Positions 21,073-27,531 of a stretch of DNA of 35,034 bases are shown piece after piece (within the stretch, counting starts at the first letter, position 1; each line of letters opens with the position of its first letter). The DNA lies in assembly GCA_937873275.1 (NCBI GenBank), contig CALMRC010000007.1, positions 1-35,034 on the forward strand, written 5' to 3'. A model generated the notes under the pieces. That model saw nothing but the letters and a program-made list of their open reading frames with translations, was not told where the DNA came from and ran no database searches. The position numbers and the translations under genes were made by a program. The DNA is from an uncultured Spirochaetota bacterium. GTDB taxonomy: Bacteria; Spirochaetota; Spirochaetia; Treponematales; UBA12059.

Positions 21073-21157
21073 CGCGGCCAGCCCGGACGGAACCGTTCGC
21101 CCGCACCGGAGTCGGGGCGGACTTGGATGTCCTCGCCTGCGCTCGCCACGGCGCCTC

Positions 21158-21177
21158 GGTTCAAATCCACTCAGCCC
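21158..21177 (+). repeat. Inverted 20-base copy of the tRNA-Pro 3' end
   Basis: GGTTCAAATCCACTCAGCCC on the plus strand is identical to the T-loop and acceptor 3' part of the tRNA-Pro gene, which lies on the minus strand at 21227-21246. The preceding bases do not complete a T stem, so this is a fragment and not a second tRNA. Confidence 0.85.
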
Positions 21178-21184
21178 AAGAAAT

Positions 21185-21220
21185 AAGAACCCCGACCGGC
21201 GAAAGCCGGTCGGGGTTCTT
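21185..21220 (-). terminator. tRNA-Pro terminator, 16-bp perfect stem
   Basis: The arms 21185-21200 and 21205-21220 are perfect reverse complements around a 4-base loop. On the minus strand it follows tRNA-Pro by 4 bases and ends in TTCTTATTT. It sits in the centre of the larger inverted repeat made by the tRNA fragment. Confidence 0.85.
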
Positions 21221-21224
21221 GAAG

Positions 21225-21297
21225 TCGGGCTGAGTGGATTTGAACCACCGACATCTTGGTCCCGAACCAAGCGCGCTAGCCCCTGCGCTACAGCCCG
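21225..21297 (-). tRNA. tRNA-Pro (anticodon CGG)
   Basis: The minus strand folds as a cloverleaf of 73 bases. Acceptor CGGGCTG pairs with CAGCCCG, discriminator A. The anticodon stem CTTGG/CCAAG encloses the loop TTCGGGA, giving CGG. The T loop is TTCAAAT with stem GGTGG/CCACT. The 3' CCA is not encoded. C1-G72 and the loop match bacterial proline tRNA (CGG). Confidence 0.95.
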
Positions 21298-21327: not shown

Positions 21328-21329
21328 TA

Positions 21330-21404
21330 CGGGAGCGACGGGGCTTGAACCCGCGATCTCCGGCTTGACAGGCCGGCGCGATAAACCAGCTTCGCTACGC
21401 CCCC
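21330..21404 (-). tRNA. tRNA-Asp (anticodon GTC)
   Basis: A 75-base cloverleaf on the minus strand. Acceptor GGGGGCG pairs with CGCTCCC (one G-U), discriminator G. The anticodon stem CCGGC/GCCGG holds the loop CTGTCAA, giving GTC. The T loop is TTCAAGC. CCA is not encoded. Confidence 0.95.
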
Positions 21405-21427
21405 AGCGTCATCGCTGACAGGAGGGA

Positions 21428-26936: not shown

Positions 26937-26997
26937 TTTAATCGGTCTTGTCGCCTTCAATTCAAGTGTAGCACCCTTTTTATGGCGTATCCCTGGC

Positions 26998-27531
26998 ATG
27001 AGAAAGCCAAGGGAGCTTCAAAAAGGGGCCGTATACCATGTTACGGCCCGGGCGAACCGAGGGGAAATGAGCCTCGACGATAAGGGGATGAAGGACCTGT
27101 TTCTTCGGGTCCTTGCCAGAGCGAGGGCGAGGTATCGGTTCCGGGTAGAGAACTTCTGTGTGCTGGGGAACCATATCCATCTCATTATACGTCCTGTGGG
27201 AGGGGAATCGCTTTCCCGGATTATGCAATGGATCCTGAGCGTATTCGCGATGGCGTTTAACCGCCAGCACGGGTACACGGGCCATGTCTGGGGATCCCGT
27301 TTTTTCTCACGCATAATGGCCAACTTCCAACAGTTCGCAAAAGTCTTTGAATATATTGACAAGAACCCGGTGGTTGCGAATCGGGTGGAAACTGCGAACG
27401 ACTGGTTTTATGGGGGCCTTTGGCATCACCGTCACGGGGTTCGAGGAATCGTGGAAGTGCTTGGAGAGTATGCGGTGCTGGCCTTTCCAGACCATGGGTT
27501 GATTCTTATAGGAGGCGACTCGTCGTCCTGA
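26998..27531 (+). mobile_element. Y1 (IS200-like, REP-associated type) transposase gene
   Basis: A 177-residue HUH single-strand transposase. The N-terminus RELQKGAVYHVTARANRGE is the standard REP-associated tyrosine transposase (RAYT) start. The HUH motif is His59-Ile-His61 in LGNHIHLIIRP, and the catalytic tyrosine is probably Tyr109 in KVFEYIDKNPVVANRV, the usual RAYT context. FNRQHGYTGHVWGSRFFSR is another conserved block. The gene is complete and appears functional. Its base composition is clearly lower in GC than its neighbours, which suggests acquisition. The reading frame stays open upstream to beyond 26880 and reads through the repeats (GTEL), but the ATG at 26998 fits the family start; no good ribosome site is visible. 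A repeat cluster precedes it and another copy follows at 28289 in the opposite orientation. Confidence 0.9.

Follow-up and report, generated by a model that had tools for sequence, protein, structure and literature searches.

Our data suggest, with good though incomplete confidence, that the inverted copy of a tRNA-Pro 3′ end found in a 35,034-nt stretch of spirochaete DNA (hereafter the window) belongs to a truncated tRNA-linked repeat cassette, a member of a repeat family of spirochaetes. The inverted tRNA end is thereby explained as the arm of a broken cassette; the interesting part is the family that stands behind the window copy.

An earlier note on this DNA had described how 20 nt of the tRNA-Pro 3′ end recur exactly, in inverted orientation, beyond a 16-bp terminator stem, and a repeat search bore this out. 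The features of the locus are the following:

21329-21405, minus strand: tRNA-Asp(gtc) (ARAGORN)
21224..21297, minus strand: tRNA-Pro(CGG), host gene of the cassette (ARAGORN)
21227..21246, minus strand: D1, the tRNA 3′ strand (T-loop, 3′ side of the T-stem, 3′ side of the acceptor), template of the cassette arms (ARAGORN and repeat search)
21185..21220, minus strand: terminator hairpin that separates the tRNA from the inverted arm; its stems are 21185-21200 and 21205-21220 (repeat search)
21158..21177, minus strand: I, the inverted arm, exact reverse complement of D1 (repeat search)
21132..21157, minus strand: what is left of the cassette core, namely hairpin P2a and the 5′ strand of P2 (alignment to the complete unit of sister genome G001, locus L034)

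The two arms (21158-21177 and 21227-21246) are 100% complementary over 20 nt at a spacing of 49 nt, and nested within them is the terminator's inverted repeat of 16 bp with a 4-nt loop. Since the tRNA-Pro called by ARAGORN spans 21224-21297 on the minus strand, the second of these arms is the T-loop/acceptor 3′ strand of that tRNA. Judged from 4^20, an exact 20-nt match some 50 nt away would lie far beyond chance. A palindrome private to the host genome – produced by chance or by replication folding back at the terminator – would place the terminator hairpin at the centre, where fold-back synthesis would turn, and this is indeed where the hairpin lies; but the family occurs in many other genomes (see below), its core is conserved, and a remnant of that core is present in the window. 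As a full account this explanation is refuted, and we give it next to no weight.

Evidence that the window copy is incomplete comes from comparison with the same tRNA in G001, which carries a complete unit. Homology extends 26 nt beyond the arm, to 21132, and then ends; arm and remnant together align with the complete unit over 44 nt with four mismatches. Given the complete unit in the sister genome, the abrupt stop at 21132 marks the window feature as the broken edge of a larger element. Missing are the remainder of the core and D2, the direct copy of the tRNA-Pro 3′ end, which was not found within 700 nt downstream of the arm. The absence of a direct repeat had been a puzzle to the earlier note, given its proposal that integration had left a scar here: D2 is present in the intact units of relatives and was lost from the window by truncation. 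The AraC/CocE side of the locus (an AraC-type regulator and an S15-type hydrolase) starts where the unit breaks off, and the suggested check for its absence from the same locus in relatives was made in G001, where the CocE part of the window has no similarity at the tRNA-Pro locus (DNA matches cover only positions 333-376 and 426-901 of the 901-nt query). Because the copy is cut short it scores weakly against our models (R2, 18.9 bits, E 0.72; R1, 16.3 bits, E 0.29; both described below). Without hairpins P2b and P3 it is probably dead. Elsewhere in the window, a reading frame at 26980-27531 (plus strand) matches Y1_Tnp, an IS200-like transposase (E 5e-11), which from its motifs we take to be of the REP-associated type. 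In relatives (L011, L013 and L025) tyrosine-integrase-like frames, recognised by eye, begin directly behind the same tRNA-Pro.

Intact units have one order: the tRNA 3′ end (D1), usually a terminator (T), the inverted copy (I), a core of about 100 nt, and the direct copy (D2), sometimes followed by a second terminator and by further units, so that a tandem arrangement is possible. I and D2 pair with one another to close a long stem (P1), and full-length units span about 100-230 nt, with a consensus structure of 45 pairs. Covariance models served as search tools. The first, R1, was built on six units; across 45 loci it matched 31 times at E below 0.01, a figure that includes its own six units and one place counted twice. 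The second, R2, was built on 33.

The host genome alone holds 15 places that match R2 at E up to 1, and every one of them follows a tRNA in the same orientation. The 13 tRNA genes concerned are Val-TAC, two Met-CAT, Leu-CAG (two tandem units), Glu-CTC, Cys-GCA, Ala-CGC, Ser-GCT, Pro-GGG, Leu-CAA, Lys-TTT, Leu-GAG (two pieces) and Pro-CGG, the window copy and the weakest. Beyond the host genome, R2 was positive in 22 of 23 genomes of the window's family (E 0.001), with as many as 16 copies detected in a single genome. Of the 241 genomes sampled from the order it was positive in 142 (E 0.0001), including 100 of the 162 of good quality and representing 54 of 81 genera, and of the 344 sampled across the phylum it was positive in 61 (E 0.00001). 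These counts are lower bounds, since filtering was stricter in the larger searches and few candidates were scored in each genome. The phylum figure takes in members of the order, seven genomes from other parts of the class and two from beyond it (G271 and G291, 76-77% complete), which may reflect contamination. Among named isolates, Breznakiella homolactica RmG30 carries units at L211 and L222. A DNA pattern scan for spread beyond the spirochaetes matched at least 118 genome stretches. From the 80 matches listed, the model upheld 44 at a threshold of E 0.01: 43 lie in spirochaete records (Breznakiella checked) and one in 'bacterium BP7.bin59'. The Streptomyces and other matches among these 80 were not confirmed. 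Carriage by viruses was considered and set aside, none of seven IMG/VR pattern matches being confirmed by the model.

The association with tRNA genes holds well outside the host genome. In the 126 loci searched, out of a set of 158, R2 gave 160 matches, 149 of them distinct once 11 identical rows had been removed; these loci were reached through earlier matches and are not a random sample. An intact tRNA lies upstream on the same strand, within the fetched stretch, at 123 of the 149 units (94 of these no more than 90 nt from it), and the nearest tRNAs represent 23 anticodons. The gap between tRNA and unit is mostly 40-55 nt, though larger in arrays, where it reaches 595 nt. The other 26 units comprise five behind tmRNA, six behind tRNA 3′ halves, 13 near contig edges and two that are unclear (L131, L154). 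Those behind tmRNA are found at L092, L094, L100 and L136, with the tmRNA confirmed by Rfam at all but L092, where the call is ARAGORN's alone. The 3′ halves, seen by eye at L040, L110, L111, L112, L118 and L137, begin near the anticodon, and the units behind them probably mark attR sides of islands by which the tail of the tRNA was displaced along with its cassette.

The arms copy the local tRNA. In the 94 units within 90 nt of a tRNA, the mean match to it over 16 positions is 14.05 for I and 14.57 for D2, compared with 9.08 and 8.87 when tRNAs for other amino acids are used instead. A profile by position, drawn from 66 units chosen for at least 12 matches in 17, shows that the arms differ in how far the copy reaches. 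Identity of I to the tRNA is 98-100% in the T-loop, falls to 47% at position 72 and is about 20% – the level of chance – at 73, whereas D2 holds 88-100% throughout the 17 positions that end at 72 and 82% at 73, and remains above chance well into the flank. Departures from the tRNA are mostly one-sided (I alone at 82 positions, D2 alone at 35), and at only 6 of 1104 positions do the arms pair with each other although both differ from it. Because both arms track the tRNA, covariation in P1 does not independently demonstrate an RNA fold, and we dropped it as evidence for an RNA stem.

These observations bear on two further explanations. The arms could be att remnants of an integrative element that uses the tRNA 3′ end; direct repeats of that end do flank the units, and the units behind tRNA 3′ halves do resemble attR sides of larger islands. 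However, one and the same covarying core sits behind many different tRNAs with arms that are local in each case, the direct repeat takes in locus-specific flank outside the tRNA, and we know of no counterpart to the inverted arm in att sites. The units also differ from tRNA-integrated islands in that, direct repeats notwithstanding, 100-230 nt is too short for an integrase gene. We therefore judge an attachment-site scar very improbable, although the broader suggestion of the earlier note – that the arm is tied to an insertion event – stands: the units of relatives are flanked by direct repeats, and pairs of loci with and without the insertion exist.

The second explanation, likewise raised by the earlier note, is antisense control of tRNA-Pro: in a read-through transcript the arm would pair with the tRNA 3′ end and block folding of the tRNA or its 3′ processing. 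Folding the read-through RNA of the window does predict such pairing at equilibrium (-104.7 kcal/mol), and the minimum free energy fold of an intact Val unit together with its tRNA uses the arm in like manner. Nascent tRNA folds before the downstream arm is synthesised; in intact units D2 offers the arm a second partner; the arrangement recurs behind many tRNAs and behind tmRNA; and decay of the arm from the T-loop towards the acceptor end runs the wrong way for an antisense specific to one tRNA. As the purpose of the arm, antisense control is unsupported, and its likelihood is if anything a shade lower than that of the attachment-site scar; a side effect of the arm on the tRNA is nonetheless possible, judging by the predicted folds. 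The earlier note would have taken absence of the inverted arm from relatives with identical gene order, together with the lack of a read-through transcript, as a refutation; in relatives the arm is present, in shorter form.

It is very probable that the cassettes spread by inserting at tRNA 3′ ends and duplicate the target in the process; filled and empty versions of the same site exist. The spacer that separates tRNA-Ser(tga) from tRNA-Ser(gct) holds a unit in G018 and none in G006, the remainder of the compared stretch being identical; the insertion measures 175 bp and has a direct repeat of 27 bp, which extends 9 bp beyond the tRNA. In seven genomes of the family (L055, L113, L125, L132, L140, L143 and L144) this spacer is short, at 13-38 nt, and free of units, which makes gain likelier than loss. 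An eighth family genome (L147) has a spacer of 135 nt with no recognisable unit, and at four loci outside the family (L102, L192, L202 and L235) the spacer does hold one. At tRNA-Ser(cga), a second filled/empty pair shows a repeat of 18 bp, with the native terminator displaced to a position behind D2. Within the window's genus the Val and Pro units have cores that look alike by eye, as though a core had passed from one tRNA to another and acquired new arms there.

This movement does not require a Y1 transposase, and the analysis turned up no enzyme that would move the cassettes. We considered a Y1/RAYT enzyme as the required mover and rejected it: Y1_Tnp was not found in G006, G011, G013, G014 or G020, all five of them rich in units, and the dependence that characterises REP/RAYT systems is thus not seen here.

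Mobility of this kind raises the question of whether the units are anything other than selfish. A purely selfish miniature insertion element would use single-stranded DNA hairpins as substrates for a transposase or recombinase, would use tRNA ends as a landing site, and would need no RNA function. Such an element would leave direct repeats at insertions, as in both filled/empty pairs, as well as tandem arrays with differing terminators and decayed copies such as that of the window; the tyrosine-integrase-like frames behind the same tRNA in relatives would also be in keeping with it. Against it stands that no Y1 transposase was found in the five unit-rich genomes. We hold this reading to be a serious contender at rather less than even probability; further evidence on it comes from the core.

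The core forms a multi-hairpin fold. In 87 units aligned without P1, 91.8% of cells are paired (63.3% in shuffled alignments), double changes number 620 against 179, and the covariation score of 0.618 compares with 0.153 for shuffled and 0.044-0.093 for slid versions; fitting the alignment to the structure favours this score, although the slid controls still lie far lower. Two units folded singly are far more stable than their shuffles (z -5.7 and -9.0). On the tRNA-sense strand G.U pairs in the core outnumber A.C pairs by 82 to 33 (binomial p 6e-6, relatedness ignored), from which it follows that a folded single strand of tRNA sense is under constraint. This asymmetry counts against a purely selfish element, and the overall rarity of G.U pairs (149 of 6309 cells) is a point in its favour. 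For the constrained strand RNA would be the simpler reading and single-stranded DNA the alternative. It is probable – somewhat less firmly so than insertion at tRNA ends – that the folded tRNA-sense strand matters, most likely as a read-through RNA trimmed at the copied tRNA end. According to the mechanism that we propose, a cassette would insert at a tRNA 3′ end and duplicate its target; read-through of the tRNA terminator would then yield an RNA to be trimmed at the copied tRNA end; and GGA-loop hairpins would bind CsrA, such that the units would titrate CsrA in step with tRNA synthesis.

The last of these steps draws on the loops. Those of P2b are mostly A-N-GGA-N or AGGAN, with GGA in 135 of 149 units (126 of 139 among loops of up to 9 nt); those of P3 are mostly AGGAN or ACGAN, with GGA in 97 of 149. 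As controls, GGA occurs in the P2a loop of 19 of the same 149 units and in 3 of 74 terminator hairpins of the same loci, though the latter control is soft because terminator loops are shorter (59 of the 74 have 3-4 nt; GGA is found in none of the 15 with 5 nt or more). GGA in the loops is conserved while the stems vary freely, another observation that counts against a purely selfish element. GGA in a hairpin loop is the known CsrA site (PMC8144298). CGA takes the place of GGA in 39 of 149 P3 loops and 9 of 149 P2b loops, and these hairpins would not fit CsrA. As in RNAs of the CsrB/RsmZ type, GGA thus lies in hairpin loops; the many sites per molecule of that type are not seen, each unit having two conserved GGA-loop hairpins as against about 18 sites in CsrB and nine in CsrC (PMC8144298).

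The host genome has a single csrA gene (G000:C64), and the gene was detected in 205 of 241 genomes of the order. Units occur in 131 of these 205 and in 11 of the 36 genomes without csrA (Fisher p 0.0004, relatedness ignored), an association that scores genomes absent from the listing as negative and leans on one family, f4, in which all eight genomes without csrA have no detected units and all four with csrA have them. Eleven genomes have units but no detected csrA – among them G090 (99% complete), G062 and G014 (94%) – and 74 have csrA with no detected units. CsrA binding is the leading candidate function for the GGA-loop hairpins. That they bind and titrate CsrA, as rRNA-linked members of E. 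coli bind it in vitro, is a real possibility to which we would give slightly less than even weight.

The closest known kind of element is the tRNA-linked repeat (TLR) of E. coli, and by definition the spirochaete units are TLRs, an identity that for the family we regard as nearly certain. Like TLRs, both the family and the window copy lie downstream of a tRNA or rRNA gene in the same orientation; the family also has the identity to the 3′ end of the upstream gene, which the window copy, having no direct copy, lacks. According to PMC8144298, E. coli TLRs have been known since 1978 and number 22 copies at ten loci, the tyrT/tyrV repeats included, with between one and five at each locus; they follow tRNA or rRNA genes, their final 18-19 bp are identical to the 3′ end of the preceding gene, and the tRNA-linked ones were in 2021 still described as having no known function. 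Three TLRs that follow 5S rRNA arise as transcripts through read-through of a terminator, and their GGA motifs mediate binding to CsrA in vitro; deletion or overexpression of the rRNA-linked TLRs had modest effects only, and the 19 TLRs of tRNA operons are predicted non-binders with scores below 0.01 (PMC8144298).

Our re-check of E. coli, in which 13 of 14 retrieved windows were scanned, recovered ten direct copies behind tRNAs. Three of these ten are accompanied by 8-10 nt in exact inverted form, and four by no inverted stretch of 6 nt or more. When models trained on spirochaete units only were run against 58.5 kb of E. coli tRNA and rRNA loci, the best matches were the tyrT/tyrV repeats (R3, 19.3 bits, E 0.0077; R2, 19.1 bits, E 0.011); the proK repeat (E 0.69 with R3, 2.1 with R2) fell amid matches in tRNA genes (E 0.2-1.7), and most other TLRs went unmatched. 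Common descent is plausible on these similarities, which are suggestive only. The spirochaete units are unlike E. coli TLRs in their long inverted arm, their 45-pair consensus structure, their occurrence behind tmRNA and the presence of GGA loops in most tRNA-linked members. The E. coli repeats rrA, rrB and rrF share with them the order terminator, repeat with the upstream gene's 3′ end, terminator, as well as GGA in hairpin loops (PMC8144298), but are found behind 5S rRNA at three loci, are more than 98% identical to one another and also bind Hfq; conservation within the Enterobacteriales has been reported for them.

Rfam has the tyrT repeats as RtT RNA (RF00391), which matches the four E. 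coli copies at 133-138 bits and found no match in the spirochaete loci tested (six loci with a limit of E 1 and six with a limit of E 0.1). Only tRNA, tmRNA and SRP RNA reached gathering scores in the spirochaete loci tested, and no Rfam family covers the units there. The 3′ external transcribed spacer 3′ETS-leuZ of E. coli titrates small RNAs by base pairing, not CsrA. It is also the 3′ trailer of a tRNA with a regulatory role as an RNA (NC_000913 annotation; named in PMC8144298), but unlike the spirochaete units it forms no repeat family. For spirochaetes, the part of the literature consulted on Leptospira (PMC8668096) gives FliW and one CsrA-like ncRNA as candidates for control of CsrA; no CsrB homologue of spirochaetes was found reported there, only the CsrA-like ncRNA of Leptospira biflexa.

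A wider reading would unite these elements. TLRs could represent one ancient family of structured mobile RNA cassettes spread across distant bacteria on tRNA, tmRNA and rRNA genes, with arms that copy the processing end of the host gene and with the effect of coupling CsrA activity to stable-RNA synthesis; in spirochaetes they would form a dispersed counterpart of CsrB, excised by tRNA-processing enzymes by way of the outer stem. The outer stem does end at the end of the tRNA acceptor stem, yet taken as a whole we consider this reading unlikely, well below CsrA binding by the units. Covariation, copy number, empty sites and GGA loops make the origin, mobility and function of TLRs directly testable outside the enterobacteria, and if CsrA does bind the units they would constitute an RNA arm of CsrA control in spirochaetes that is tied to tRNA output.

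Several loci hold repeats of other kinds. Other small hairpin repeats, of a CAATCNNTTCCAC-like motif, are nested by eye in the loops or arms of units at L014, L038, L041, L048 and L064. Behind tRNA-Pro at L026 (G023) there are tandem repeats of about 90 bp, each comprising the tRNA-Pro 3′ end and a terminator, with no recognisable core. At L032 (G034), again behind tRNA-Pro, tandem units combine inverted and direct tRNA ends with a core of a different type, which suggests a second family of tRNA-linked repeats.
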